From a virus, in the IMG/VR virus record IMGVR_UViG_3300037805_000447, positions 1 through 38,037 of that record: DNA of 38,037 nt; one strand, given 5' to 3'. The notes beneath the pieces were generated by a model that was not told where the DNA came from, did no database searches, and was given only the letters and a program-made list of their open reading frames with translations. Of this stretch, positions 9,480-20,514 are shown in pieces. Position 1 is the first letter of the stretch. Every line of letters starts with the position of its first letter. Both the position numbers and the translations under genes were made by a program.

Positions 9480-9745
9480 CACTCCGATCTTATCGATCTG
9501 CTCTACATTTCTATAGAGATGAGACTATATCGTCAGGCTTTCATCTCACCTGCACCCCGCTTCGGATCACTTGATCCTACTCCTTAATGGATAGTCGTTG
9601 AACCTTCACCTATACGGTGCTTGGCTGCTGATTGTCCAATCCTGCTATTTTCAAACATTCACGCCTACCGTTTCCAGTTTCGTTGTAGTTAGCAAGGCTC
9701 TAAGGAGTTTCCAGCAATTCAAGGTGTGTTTAGCGTCCGGCTAAA
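9480..9745 (-). ncRNA. Group I intron (IA-like), boundaries approximate
   Basis: The minus strand carries group I core landmarks in order. They are AATTGCTGGAAACTCC (P3/P4 side), AATCAGCAGCCAAG at 9620-9633, CAACGACTATCC at 9589-9600, then GGAGTAGGATCAAGTGA and CCGAA, and GATATAGTC (P7 3' strand) at 9523-9531. A P9-like hairpin CTCTA...TAGAG follows. The GACTATCC to GGAGTAGGATCAAGTGA part closely follows the T4 td intron. It contains no ORF. It sits between a ribosome site with ATG at 9758 and the coding frame at 9059-9475. Confidence 0.9.
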
Positions 9746-9758
9746 TCAACTCGGACAT
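9746..9758 (-). other. Putative exon 1 with start codon and ribosome site
   Basis: ATGTCCGAGTTG begins at 9758, preceded by TAGGAGATATTTAAA, a good Shine-Dalgarno. Read through, it meets TAG after five codons, inside the intron. A splice after roughly 11-15 nt could restore the frame, giving an N-terminus such as MSELI joined to the exon 2 frame. The exact 5' site (the expected U-G pair in P1) could not be fixed by eye. Confidence 0.55.
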
Positions 9759-9886
9759 TTTAAATATCTCCTATAAAGGTTAAAAATGGGGATTATTCCC
9801 CGGTTTGAATAATAATTCTACATCTATTTAGCATCGAAAAATCGAAAAATCGACTTTTTGAACAATGTTAATCATTCATATAATCT

Positions 9887-9939: not shown

Positions 9940-10022
9940 TGATAAATAGAACTGTAGATCGCGGACGGCCATCCCATCTACACTAACACTTATCAGGAGT
10001 ATCAGCATATGTCTATTTATCA
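9940..10022 (+). promoter_or_regulatory. Homing-endonuclease leader cassette, copy A
   Basis: The cassette starts with late promoter TGATAAATA (9940-9948). Next comes a hairpin with stem TGTAGAT/ATCTACA, then AGGAGTATCAGC and the ATG of the HNH gene at 10009. The first codons (ATGTCTATTTATCAC) contain a late promoter facing the other way (TGATAAATA on the minus strand, 10014-10022) toward the intron-split gene. A close copy in opposite orientation lies at 15221-15303. Confidence 0.8.
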
Positions 10023-10914
10023 CGAGTTCAAATCGCATGGGATTGAGGTGCTTGACAACAAGTACTTCAAGTGGTATTGTGAGTTAGTTGATCGTCGTAT
10101 TGAATGTCCATCACCCGATGATTATGTTGAGAGACATCATTGGATACCCAAGTCATTACATCCAAATGACGGTATTGTTGTGCTTTCTGCGCGGGAACAT
10201 TTCATTGCTCATCTGCTTCTGATCAAGTTCCTCAAGGACGACAATCTCAATAAAATGAGAAATGCTTTCTTTGGCATGAGTAAACACCAATCATTTGTAT
10301 CAGGTCGAACATATGAAGCACTTAGAAAAGCGTTCAATGTTCGTAACATTGGATCCAGTAATCCATCATGTAACGGTGTATATCATACTCCGTGGGGATC
10401 ATTTGATTTTCTAGGTGACGCTATTGATAAGTGTCCAGGTTCAACAACTAAGAGCACTGTGATTAAGTATTGTCATACATACAATGATAGAGTGATAACT
10501 GAGCATATGGTCATAAGAAGCCAATTGTTGATTCACGATGATATTGGTAAGACATTTCATGATGTGGGATTCTGGTTTGAGCCTAAGAGTGGATATACAC
10601 CAAATGTTTCATTCATTGTGAAGGGTGCTTCAATGAAATGTGTGATACGTGATAAGAAGCCGTATAAGACAGACAATGACTTCCATCGCAACAGAAATCA
10701 GTATATAGACTCATCTGGAGTGAAAAATAGTAATTGGAGGGGAACATATCACATCAATGATATGTCATTCGATACAGCTAAGGACCTGAGTGAATATACA
10801 GGGCTATCTCGATCGTTCATTAGTACACTATTCAAAGATGGATTGAATGATATAATCACTAAGAGACAGTCAAGGAACAACGTGTTCCTCAAATCACTCT
10901 CATTTGATCCATAA
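10009..10914 (+). CDS. HNH homing endonuclease
   Basis: This 301 aa protein has an HNH-type core near residues 40-72: YVERHHWIPKSLHPND, then VVLSAREHFIAHLLL, with the catalytic His pair and the downstream His expected of phage HNH homing enzymes. Residues about 123-193 hold one TPWGSFDFLGDAI...KTFHDVGFWFE module, the same module found three times in the GIY-YIG protein at 7576. The C-terminus (DLSEYTGLSRSFISTLFKDG) looks like a helix-turn-helix DNA-binding segment of the NUMOD type. It lies just upstream of the intron-split gene but on the other strand, so it may promote spread of that intron or flank. Confidence 0.88.
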   Translation: MSIYHEFKSHGIEVLDNKYFKWYCELVDRRIECPSPDDYVERHHWIPKSLHPNDGIVVLSAREHFIAHLLLIKFLKDDNLNKMRNAFFGMSKHQSFVSGRTYEALRKAFNVRNIGSSNPSCNGVYHTPWGSFDFLGDAIDKCPGSTTKSTVIKYCHTYNDRVITEHMVIRSQLLIHDDIGKTFHDVGFWFEPKSGYTPNVSFIVKGASMKCVIRDKKPYKTDNDFHRNRNQYIDSSGVKNSNWRGTYHINDMSFDTAKDLSEYTGLSRSFISTLFKDGLNDIITKRQSRNNVFLKSLSFDP

Positions 10915-13390: not shown

Positions 13391-14173
13391 ATGATAAATT
13401 TGATGAAAGGTGACTGTTTAGAGAAGATGTGTGATATTGAAGATGGATCTATTGATCTCATATTAACAGATCCTCCATATGGTACCACTGCGTGTAAATG
13501 GGATAGTGTTATCCCCTTGGATGAGATGTGGACACATTTAAAACGTCTAATTACACCAACAGGCGCTATAGTGATGACTGCAAGCCAGCCATTCACTACC
13601 ACATTGATTGCCTCTAATCTTGATATGTTTAAGTATTGTTGGGTGTGGGAGAAGACTAAGGCAAGCAACTTTGTCCACTCAAATTTTCAGCCGATGAAGG
13701 TTCATGAGGATATTGTTGTGTTCAGTCACGGCGGTGCCGCTCAAGGATCCAAGACCCCTATGACATACAATAAACAGATGACTGCCGGCGAGCCTTATAG
13801 TAGACGAGATACAACTGGAGGGAACAGGGTTTTAGCGGGTGGGTTGAACGGTGTTGATGTTGTGAATGTGACGGGCCAGAGACCTCCTAAGAGCATTGTG
13901 AAGATATCTAATCCGTCCGGTAAGGGACATCTTCACCCCACACAGAAGCCTGTGGAGCTGATGGAGTATCTCATCAATACATATAGTAATGAGAACGATA
14001 CTGTACTAGATTTCACAATGGGAAGCGGTACTACAGGAGTAGCGTGTAAGAGGACGAATAGATCATTCATAGGAATTGAGATGGATGCTGAATACTTCAA
14101 CATCGCAGAGTCACGCAGCAATGATACTATCCTCGTTGGTGAGGATACTGGTGTACTCCAATGGATGGAGTAA
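13391..14173 (+). CDS. DNA methyltransferase, beta-class N6-adenine type
   Basis: This 260 aa protein has catalytic motif IV DPPYG (about residues 27-31) near the N-terminus and the AdoMet-binding motif I DFTMGSGTTGVA near residues 206-217. Between them is a target-recognition stretch with HPTQKPVELMEYLI just before motif I. This order defines the beta class of adenine methyltransferases. No restriction partner is nearby, so it probably protects phage DNA from host enzymes or marks it for regulation. It stands alone behind a sigma-70-like promoter, suggesting early expression. The ATG at 13403 is an alternative start. Confidence 0.9.
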   Translation: MINLMKGDCLEKMCDIEDGSIDLILTDPPYGTTACKWDSVIPLDEMWTHLKRLITPTGAIVMTASQPFTTTLIASNLDMFKYCWVWEKTKASNFVHSNFQPMKVHEDIVVFSHGGAAQGSKTPMTYNKQMTAGEPYSRRDTTGGNRVLAGGLNGVDVVNVTGQRPPKSIVKISNPSGKGHLHPTQKPVELMEYLINTYSNENDTVLDFTMGSGTTGVACKRTNRSFIGIEMDAEYFNIAESRSNDTILVGEDTGVLQWME

Positions 14174-14304: not shown

Positions 14305-15235
14305 TTATGTGAACACTTTGTTTAGTATTTCATCTATCTCATTGAATTTGGTGTACTTTATGCGAATCAAGCGTATATCATTATCTTTGTAAAATGTGTT
14401 TTTGATATTATCTAATTTCTGTCTTTGTTTCAACGCTTCTTCTCCACCGAACAACACTCTCGGTTTAAAGTGTTGTATGCCATCATATTCGATACATAGA
14501 TTTTTAGAATGTATGAAGAAATCGAAGGGTAAATGTCTCTTGTATTTACATTTGTCGAATGTGTGTTGTGTTGTATAATTAATGTTATTTGATATGAGGT
14601 ATTCTTCTATCGCTGCTTCGCCCTTAGAAATTTGACATTTTGGGCAATTTGTTCCATTGAGATGGCTATTTGGTGTTTGCTTAAATGTGCCATGAGAGGG
14701 ACATATTATGTCTACCTTTATATTGGATTTGATGTAATTAACATTTGTGTAATTATATTTTTGGCCGTGAATCCTCACTGCACCATCTATGAATTCTTCG
14801 GTGGTTTTTCTACTGAAAGGGGAGCATTTAGGACACCCCTTTCCTTCATAATGATTTTTGGCTTTCTGAGTGAATTCACCGTGTATTGGACAAATTATTA
14901 TCACAGAAGCATCACATGATGTGTATTCCACCTTTGAATAATTATATTTATTCTTATGTGCTTGTGTTGATAGTGTGATAAAATCACCAGTCGATTTTCT
15001 GAAACTATCGGTGTGACATTTTGAGCACCCTGCCCACTTAAATGTGATCCAGCGAGCTGAGTGAATTCACCGTGTATTGGACAAATTATAATAATCTTGG
15101 AACTTGTATTTGTGTAAACTGCTTTTACTGTAGTCGAATTTATTGTTATGAGCTTTAGATGACTCATTAATGAATTGTGATTGAGTTCTCCTTTTACCGC
15201 CCATGAAGAATCTCCGAGTTTGTATAAATAGTCAT
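14305..15235 (-). pseudogene. Decayed homing endonuclease (zinc-finger repeats plus VSR/DUF559-like nuclease)
   Basis: The intact C-terminal 208 aa holds CPxHG...CPKC zinc-binding repeats and a nuclease end (IEYDGIQHFKP, DNIKNTFYKDNDIRLIRIKY) of the VSR/DUF559 type. Homology continues upstream but breaks frame. Near 15032 one base is missing, so GQG-CSKC reads GQGAQN. Near 15125 an extra A in AAAA breaks FDYSK-AVYTNTSSK. Near 15200 the initial frame MTIYTNSEILHGR hits TAA. At least three frame changes separate the start at 15235 from the nuclease, so the gene is almost certainly inactive. Its leader is a copy of that of the HNH gene at 10009. Confidence 0.85.
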
Positions 15236-16655: not shown

Positions 16656-16961
16656 ATGAAAATGACTAAAATTTTGACTACCATCGCCCTTATCGCTGCT
16701 ACTACTTCAGCATCCGCTTTTTTCGGGGACAACAATAACAGTAATGGCCGTGGCTACTCAAACGGTGATGGCGCTTTTGATGGAGACACTTCAGGACAAG
16801 GATACGCTAAAGGTAACGCGGAGGGCAACTTCAGCATGACCATCAACACTTCTGGTAAAGCATTCTCTAAGATGCGCGCCGATTTCGACGGTAACACAGC
16901 TTCTCGCCTACAGGGAACCAGTGATATCAACGGCACCAGCTCCACAACTGATAACTTTTAA
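16656..16961 (+). CDS. Exported Gly/Asn/Ser-rich protein
   Basis: The ATG at 16656 follows AGAGGAATCTATT and gives 101 aa. MKMTKILTTIALIAATTSAS then AFF is a clear Sec signal peptide with cleavage near ASA-FF. The mature part is rich in Gly, Asn, Asp and Ser (NNNSNGRGYSNGDGAFDGDT) without Cys. It resembles small periplasmic proteins of marine gammaproteobacteria annotated as sulfur-globule-like, but that likeness is only by composition. It heads a run of genes aimed at the cell envelope. Confidence 0.7.
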   Translation: MKMTKILTTIALIAATTSASAFFGDNNNSNGRGYSNGDGAFDGDTSGQGYAKGNAEGNFSMTINTSGKAFSKMRADFDGNTASRLQGTSDINGTSSTTDNF

Positions 16962-17008
16962 ACCACTATACATCTAGGAAGATGTTTCAATATTACAAGG
17001 AAGTAACT

Positions 17009-17236
17009 ATGAAGACTTATATAACATTAGCAGCATTGATTTTAAGTGCTAACGCAACAGCAAACTCGGTTGATTATTGGGGTGAGTATATATCATTTGA
17101 CGAGGAGAACTATGAGGAAGTGAGTATTTCACCTAATCAAGCTAATTATCTAGCATTTGATGAGGAGCAATATAGAACTGACAGCTTGTACTCGTATATG
17201 GATGTATATGACGATACCGTTTATGTGGTGGACTGA
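17009..17236 (+). CDS. Small exported acidic protein
   Basis: From the ATG at 17009 (after CAAGGAAGTAACT) the product is 75 aa with signal peptide MKTYITLAALILSANATA. The mature part is strongly acidic and tyrosine-rich, with two related stretches (ISFDEENYEE and LAFDEEQYRT). It probably acts in the periplasm. The gene follows the Gly-rich exported protein by about 45 nt, in one transcript. Family unknown. Confidence 0.6.
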   Translation: MKTYITLAALILSANATANSVDYWGEYISFDEENYEEVSISPNQANYLAFDEEQYRTDSLYSYMDVYDDTVYVVD

Positions 17237-18297: not shown

Positions 18298-18326
18298 TTT
18301 ACAAATGATAAATAATGTTGTATAAT
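18298..18326 (+). promoter_or_regulatory. Early promoter with embedded late promoter, for the porin
   Basis: TTTACA (18298-18303), 17 bp, TATAAT (18321-18326), close to the sigma-70 ideal. The spacer holds the late element TGATAAATA (18306-18314). AAAGGAAAAAT precedes the ATG at 18360. Confidence 0.8.
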
Positions 18327-18359
18327 AATCAATATCATCATTTTAATAAAAGGAAAAAT

Positions 18360-19187
18360 ATGAATAAGACTATTTTAAGTGCGGCAATCATTGCTGCTTC
18401 TTTCGGCGCAAATGCTGTAGGTGTTAATGGATCAGTGGAATATGTTATGTCCAGTGACAACGGCGTGTTGGACATCAAGACAGATGACACATTTGTATCA
18501 TTCACTGATAGTGAGAGTTTAGGTGAAGGTGTAAGTGCGTACACTGTACTCTCTGCTGATGTTGACTCAGAGGCGGGAACAGCAGTAACAACTCGTGATG
18601 CTCTAGTAGGCATCAAAGCTGGAGGCGTGAATGTAGCAGTGGGCCGTATGGCTAATGTTCAGAAGGATCTCAGTGGAGCAACTGTAGATATTTTTGAAGG
18701 TAATGGCCAAGCATTGGCTGGAGCTGCTCGCGTAAACAACTCTATTAAAGCAGAGTTGGATATGGGTAAGGTTACATTGATGGGCGGTGCTGTTGTTGAA
18801 GGATCTACTGGAGAGGACAAAGCAGACTCTTATGAGATTGGTGCTATGACTGATTTAGGTGATGTCCGAGTTGGTGGTGTATACACTGAAGATCTCACCA
18901 CTAATGTCGCATCTAAGGTGGTGGCAGGATCAACAGTAGTTGGTGGCGCAACTGTTGGAGCATCATTTGAGCGGGCTGTTGTTGATACCGTGAATGTTGT
19001 TGCTTCTATTGATGTCGGAGCAAACACTATTAAGGCTGGCTATGCTGATGTTGAAGCAGGCGCTGATATTGTGACACTTGAAGGTGTTCATAACTACTCG
19101 AATCGCACATCTGCTTATGTGAACGTTCAGAGTGATAGCACTGCGGCCAATGAAGTATATCAGGTTGGTTTGAAGCACACATTTTAA
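18360..19187 (+). CDS. Outer-membrane porin (Gram-negative porin family)
   Basis: This 275 aa protein has a signal peptide (MNKTILSAAIIAASFGANA) and a mature start VGVNGSVEYVMSS like general porins. Porin landmarks follow: FVSFTDSESLGEGVSAYTVL (the lightly altered GSEDLGNG loop), ALVGIKAGGVNVAVGRM, and an alternating beta-strand pattern. The last residues YQVGLKHTF end in the aromatic residue needed for BAM-dependent insertion. It is shorter than most porins (300-400 aa), so it may have fewer strands. It should go to the host outer membrane during infection. Strong early and late promoters and a terminator make it an independent unit. This is a very unusual cargo for a phage. Confidence 0.82.
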   Translation: MNKTILSAAIIAASFGANAVGVNGSVEYVMSSDNGVLDIKTDDTFVSFTDSESLGEGVSAYTVLSADVDSEAGTAVTTRDALVGIKAGGVNVAVGRMANVQKDLSGATVDIFEGNGQALAGAARVNNSIKAELDMGKVTLMGGAVVEGSTGEDKADSYEIGAMTDLGDVRVGGVYTEDLTTNVASKVVAGSTVVGGATVGASFERAVVDTVNVVASIDVGANTIKAGYADVEAGADIVTLEGVHNYSNRTSAYVNVQSDSTAANEVYQVGLKHTF

Positions 19188-19199
19188 TTGACATTTTTA

Positions 19200-19236
19200 G
19201 CCCGGAGCAGGAATAAGATTCTTCCGGGCCCTTTTT
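19200..19236 (+). terminator. Rho-independent terminator of the porin
   Basis: GCCCGGA pairs with TCCGGGC and is followed by CCTTTTT. Confidence 0.85.
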
Positions 19237-19627: not shown

Positions 19628-19870
19628 TGAAAGAGCGTAAACTGATGTTTGGAAGGTAGACAACACGCGGGTTCGACCCCCGCCTCCTCCACCATAAGTG
19701 TTATTACTGCGATGAACGGTAAAATAGCATTTATGATGGGGGTGAATTGGAATCGACTGATATTGGAAGGATATTGGCGCTAGGTAATGTGAAAGCCTTA
19801 ATAGACACACTTAAAGTAATTGCAAATGACAACTACTACCGAATGGCGGCCTAGAGCCCTATTCTAAGGT
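19628..19870 (+). ncRNA. ssrA: Circularly permuted two-piece tmRNA
   Basis: The acceptor piece comes first: a T arm GCGGG-TTCGACC-CCCGC, then CTCCTCC and ACCA ending at 19694. A 43-nt intervening segment follows. The coding piece starts GGGGGTGAATTGGAATCGAC (19738 on), as in tmRNA 5' ends. GGGGGTG pairs with CTCCTCC, with a G3-U70 pair (the alanine identity mark) and one U-U mismatch. The tag frame at 19822-19854 encodes ANDNYYRMAA plus stop, close to known tags (AND...AA). CCA before the 5' part is the hallmark of permuted genes. The 3' end of the coding piece is uncertain. Confidence 0.9.
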
Positions 19871-20079: not shown

Positions 20080-20514
20080 ATGTACAGTAACGACATCGAG
20101 CGTTTTTTCAACTCAACACTTGGCTTCCATTCAATCATTCGAGCAATGAATGAAACTGATTCTCAACAGAAGTTTCCACCAGCCAACATCTCATCATATG
20201 AAGATGATGGGGGTAAAGCGATCATTCGAGTAGATCTGGCTCTAGCTGGATGGGCAATTAATGAACTGGACGTGAAGTTTGGTGATAATAAGATTATCGT
20301 AGAGGGGACACCTGAGAATCTCGGTGAGATTGAAAATGTCCATTATCACCATAAAGGCATCTCAAAAAGAGCATTCTCTTGGCAACGAGTTGTTCCCGCT
20401 AATAATGTGATTAATGATGTTGTGTTTGATAATGGCATCTTAACGATTTTCATCTCAGTGGTTGTTCCGAAGAGTCAGGAAATTCGGGAAGTCTCTATTA
20501 AACAGATGAAGTGA
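20080..20514 (+). CDS. hsp20: Small heat-shock protein, Hsp20/IbpA family
   Basis: This 144 aa protein has an alpha-crystallin domain: IIRVDLALAGWAINELDVKF, then DNKIIVEGTPE, and HHKGISKRAFSWQRVVP followed by VVFDNGILTIFISVVVPK. Length matches the family. Hsp20 is common in marine T4-like phages and holds unfolding proteins, perhaps phage capsid or scaffold subunits. ACAGGAGTACAATT gives a good ribosome site. Confidence 0.9.
   Translation: MYSNDIERFFNSTLGFHSIIRAMNETDSQQKFPPANISSYEDDGGKAIIRVDLALAGWAINELDVKFGDNKIIVEGTPENLGEIENVHYHHKGISKRAFSWQRVVPANNVINDVVFDNGILTIFISVVVPKSQEIREVSIKQMK

Follow-up and report, generated by a model that had tools for sequence, protein, structure and literature searches.

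The sequence analysed here (the window) covers the linear virus contig IMGVR_UViG_3300037805_000447 over its full length of 38,037 nucleotides (38 kb). It contains matches to a Dda-like helicase, a gp59-like loader and gp32 of the T4-like phages, and further T4-like matches to a gp26-region baseplate hub, a gp5-like hub/lysozyme, PAAR, gp25 and gp6; the T4-like context given to the locus in the original prediction is borne out by the helicase, gp59-like, gp32, gp5-like, gp25 and gp6 matches. The ORF P0001, which encodes a putative outer membrane porin, has the helicase on one side and the gp59/gp32 region on the other. The sequence recurs, 99.985% identical, in another IMG/VR contig (L001; 6468 bp, ~6.5 kb), indicating that the porin locus is not an assembly error. 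The parts of the porin unit are:

18298..18326, + strand: sigma-70-type promoter TTTACA-17-TATAAT, 11/12 (consensus match)
18307..18314, + strand: T4-type late-promoter element GATAAATA, overlapping the sigma-70 spacer (over-represented octamer)
18348..18359, + strand: end of the leader with the ribosome-binding site AAGGA (sequence)
18360..19187, + strand: porin CDS P0001, 275 aa plus stop (ORF, Pfam, model)
18651..18734, + strand: predicted L3 constriction loop, codons 98-125, between strands 5 and 6 (AF2 model)
19155..19184, + strand: putative BAM signal, the C-terminal strand with its final Phe (sequence, family alignment)
19200..19236, + strand: intrinsic terminator made up of the 19200-19229 hairpin and a run of T (fold energy)

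The original prediction that the gene is transcribed as an independent unit is supported: promoter signals of the sigma-70 type and of the late type lie in front of it and a terminator behind it. Sigma-70-type sites of 11/12 quality occur seven times in the window against 1.6 expected from Markov shuffles, the GATAAATA octamer 12 times against 2.4, and TATAAATA ten times against 3.1. The terminator stem (GCCCGG..CCGGGC) is followed by TTTTT, with a folding energy of -18.9 kcal/mol (z -2.7) for the 61-nt stretch; having a loop of more than 8, this hairpin escaped a simple terminator scanner. The early promoter proposed for the gene is retained as a candidate on its 11/12 match to the sigma-70 consensus. 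For the late signal, the core [AC]TAAATA is found 47-100 nt upstream of 25 of 26 non-redundant phage porin genes, a set that took in only L062 from a third group of loci (L062 and L159-L165) in which the core is absent. Random stretches of the same loci contain it in 2.2 of 26 cases, the highest count over 300 draws being 7, for a core that was fixed after some upstream regions had been inspected. Terminators also lie directly 3' of the porin gene in several relatives. Taken together, the sequence signals suggest that the phage porin is probably a late gene. A small hairpin (ATCCCGTCCTGGGAT) is conserved before the ribosome site in the HTVC-type porin leaders; it precedes the porin start by 20-70 nt in L007, L015, L031, L049 and others, and is possibly a translation or stability element.

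P0001 starts with ATG and has 275 aa, comprising a predicted signal peptide (~residues 1-19) and a mature barrel of ~256 aa. Inspected by eye, its N-terminus (MNKTILSAAIIAASFGANA, with V as the first residue after cleavage) has the n/h/c pattern and an ANA cleavage motif. The C-terminus reads ...YQVGLKHTF, and the terminal Phe is shared by all 26 aligned family members; the His at the -3 position from the C-terminus is atypical for a BAM signal. Pfam assigns residues 8-261 to PF13609 (Porin_4, profile positions 3-307) with an E value of 5e-12 and a score of 46.7 bits, the curated cut-off being 27. NCBIfam and PHROGs contain no family for P0001, and a search of the PDB by sequence gave weak matches to PorB/Omp38 only. 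The AF2 model, which was built with 26 phage relatives and is moderately confident (mean pLDDT 73), consists of a helical signal followed by 16 barrel strands, one short strand within L1 being discounted. Between strands 5 and 6, in the place of the porin L3, it has a 28-residue loop with a short helix (100-107), part of which falls below pLDDT 50. It superimposes on Omp32 (2fgq) over 256 residues with a VIA-align Z of 26.4 and an rmsd of 2.1 A, and Z is above 23 for PorB, OmpU, OmpF, OmpC and the R. blastica porin alike. An HTVC008M-type relative, modelled as the first sequence of its own alignment, gave the same fold (pLDDT 84, Z 26.3). Structure prediction, proposed beforehand as the check for a beta-barrel, thus returned a barrel of the general-porin type that has 16 strands and an L3 folded inward, and neither of the outcomes named in advance as speaking against a porin, a non-barrel fold or homology to a virion family, was found. 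The assignment as an outer-membrane porin is upheld by the Porin_4 match, the predicted fold, the signal peptide and the terminal Phe, and we regard P0001 as very probably a porin of the host outer membrane.

The long, variable extracellular loops that are typical of Gram-negative general porins, though not strictly defining, are absent from P0001. In the model, L1, L2 and L4-L8 have 10, 7, 10, 4, 1, 4 and 4 residues, and L3 is full at 28. The mature protein of ~256 aa compares with 289 residues for the shortest chain among the PDB matches listed, and the deficit falls in the extracellular loops, L3 being kept. The loops of the phage family are also less variable than its strands (entropy 0.47 versus 0.69 bits), loops being lower in 500 of 500 random quartets, which are not independent and come from a set of mostly marine myophages. 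By the same measure the E. coli porins OmpF, OmpC, PhoE and OmpN show the reverse (loops 0.87, strands 0.44), with loop borders that follow the P0001 model in the phage set and OmpF in this E. coli control. The modelled surface is nearly loop-free, so phages and bacteriocins that bind porins would be expected to find little hold on it. The short loops could have been inherited from a short-looped bacterial porin. The loop-poor architecture would also make the protein a minimal 16-strand porin of natural origin.

A single annotated relative was found among phages: I899_gp042 (YP_007517908.1), named "outer membrane porin", of the Pelagibacter (SAR11) phage HTVC008M, which is 30% identical to P0001 (tblastn 8e-7). 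In a small blastp set, P0001 matched HTVC008M-type porins at ~1e-17 to 1e-19 and E. coli porins at 0.04 or worse. Relatives in IMG/VR amount to 58 loci found via the HTVC008M porin and the best 80 of 88 found via a profile, and members of the family are frequent among SAR11-type myophage contigs. No description of a pelagiphage porin was found in the open literature, and a paper on pelagimyophages does not contain the word "porin" (PMC7029224). The HTVC-type porin genes are under purifying selection, with a median dN/dS of 0.17 in that clade. In a tree whose bacterial porins are E. coli only, the branch leading to P0001 itself is very long, at 3.69 changes per column, and P0001 may for this reason function differently from its relatives. 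It may descend from a phage ancestor in common with them or have been acquired independently. In near relatives by gp32/gp6, most of whose records are fragments, the Porin_4 gene is absent, as in the 149-kb G001, which implies that it is dispensable.

The family occurs in at least two unrelated phage lineages, one of them T4-like and the other that of a phage exceeding 200 kb. The latter is represented by one contig of 204 kb in which no T4 gp6 was found, and its porin gene is surrounded by DnaB-type helicase, primase, ribonucleotide reductase and phage protease families. In L159, L160, L161, L162 and L165 of this second lineage an alphaproteobacterial-type tmRNA (~2600-2950) lies directly 5' of the porin gene. 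These tmRNA-porin contigs (L159-L165) were considered as a bacterial chromosome or donor, and this was rejected in favour of a phage origin on account of the phage-type genes around the porin in the 204-kb contig. The homology search that was expected to lead to a Gram-negative donor lineage yielded no bacterial donor among the genomes and plasmids scanned. Scans with P0001 and the profile A2 gave no relative in 84,980 bacterial and archaeal genomes, a blank result that does not equal absence, as the scan relies on short conserved peptides; a plasmid search was likewise negative.

Phage-encoded porins are already known from lambdoid phages. The novelty of the present gene is therefore smaller than was first held, given these porins and the annotated one of HTVC008M, and P0001 is a divergent, compact variant of known phage porins. 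The HTVC008M porin and its IMG/VR relatives share Porin_4, the signal peptide and the terminal Phe with P0001; the HTVC008M gene also lies in a T4-like phage with the late core upstream, and its product has the same predicted barrel and belongs to the same length class (285 versus 275 aa). The two phages differ in the neighbours of the gene and in GC content (33% in HTVC008M, 41% in the window phage), and the porins are only ~30% identical. Lc of phage PA-2 and NmpC, which is annotated in DLP12, resemble P0001 in being phage-borne general porins expected in the host outer membrane. However, they are OmpC/OmpF-type proteins of temperate lambdoid phages and are expressed in the lysogenic state, whereas P0001 comes from a T4-like phage and has a late signal and a mature barrel of ~256 aa. 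P0001 matches E. coli OmpN with an E value of 0.04 at best and OmpF/OmpC more weakly; judged by these E. coli porins and by its T4-like context, it is not of the PA-2/NmpC type. E. coli OmpF, OmpC, PhoE and OmpN have 351-377 aa and longer loops. Omp32, PorB, Omp38 and V. cholerae OmpU share 16 strands and L3 with P0001 (Z 25-26), but are bacterial, measure 302-343 residues in the matched chains, have longer extracellular loops and are 13-19% identical to it. A viral OmpL-like porin encoded beside glnK-amtB in putative Bacteroidetes phages (PMC8115048) is likewise a phage-encoded barrel proposed to function in the host envelope; it belongs to a nitrogen-uptake cluster with flavobacterial gene order, whereas P0001 is encoded by a lone gene. 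What is new is the family view of widespread, late-signalled, loop-poor phage porins, with a late core conserved upstream of nearly all relatives, purifying selection in the HTVC-type clade and short loops of low variability.

We propose that the phage porin would be synthesized mainly late in infection and exported by Sec, and that the host BAM machinery would insert it, a trimer being its probable form. It would then open a diffusion pore in the outer membrane of the infected cell and may sustain solute uptake during the shut-off of host genes. With moderate confidence we favour the reading that a late phage gene here equips the outer membrane of the infected cell with a loop-poor diffusion pore; that the selected benefit is mainly solute uptake is an evenly balanced proposition. 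Solute supply is favoured because of the late timing signal, the kept L3 and the purifying selection.

A different benefit, the chief alternative to solute supply, which we put forward as possible but doubtful, is that the phage porin displaces host porins that serve as receptors for the phage itself or for its competitors, so that superinfection is excluded or less progeny sticks to debris; the stripped loops would then be the point of the protein. The loop-poor surface, with short and conserved loops around a kept L3, is the best clue in this direction, and porins are indeed bound by known phages, OmpC for instance being the receptor of phi330 (PMC12502783). There is also a precedent in IpeX, a small RNA made from a lambdoid phage porin transcript, which is reported to lower host OmpC (PMC12197685). 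On the other hand, a late gene acts too late against most superinfection, and neither a repressor of host porins nor an IpeX-like RNA was recognized beside the P0001 gene. Solute supply and receptor replacement can both be true. A tentative extension joins them in "stealth" porins of marine T4-like and larger phages, made late and stripped of the loops used by phages and bacteriocins, which would assume control of outer-membrane permeability while presenting no receptor; the cell would keep feeding and be hard to re-infect or to trap progeny. If lytic phages routinely rebuild outer-membrane permeability in this manner, infected marine bacteria would differ in their nutrient uptake and in the phages that can attach to them. 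HTVC008M, a family member with a cultured host, makes the idea directly testable.

It is improbable that P0001 is a recently captured host porin drifting without a selected role. The patchy presence of the gene, absent from the G001 relative, and the divergence of P0001 would fit such a history, but the frame is open with promoter and terminator intact, the family spans unrelated phage lineages as described above, and selection is purifying in the related HTVC-type clade (P0001 itself having one near-identical copy only). Least probable is that the porin-like barrel belongs to a protein of the virion or of lysis. The late promoter resembles those of structural genes and the HTVC008M porin gene lies between baseplate and tail genes, but P0001 matches no PHROG virion family, an outer-membrane destination is indicated by its signal peptide and terminal Phe, and its best structural matches are all bacterial porins.

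Several other genes in the window deserve mention. Upstream of the porin gene, two small ORFs (16656-16961 and 17006-17236, + strand) have signal-peptide-like starts, and one of the products is Gly/Asn/Asp-rich. Neither product has a family match, and no homologue of the small exported protein encoded at 16656-16961 was found among phage/viral sequences; together with the porin they possibly form an envelope-directed gene cluster. About 450 bases 3' of the porin gene lies a permuted tmRNA gene (19633-19854, + strand; Rfam RF04321, 87 bits), and a tmRNA gene is also present in 6 of 16 phage records tested, HTVC008M included. The window also has a gene for an Hsp20-type small heat-shock protein (20080-20514, + strand; Pfam HSP20, E 4e-10; PHROG 432). 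A group I intron (9501-9839, - strand; Rfam RF00028, 76 bits) lies near a 301-aa ORF (10009-10914) that, judged by eye, has the look of a homing endonuclease. A DNA methylase gene (13391-14173) adjoins a gene (14305-14931, - strand) whose product has DUF4379-type treble-clef zinc-finger repeats.
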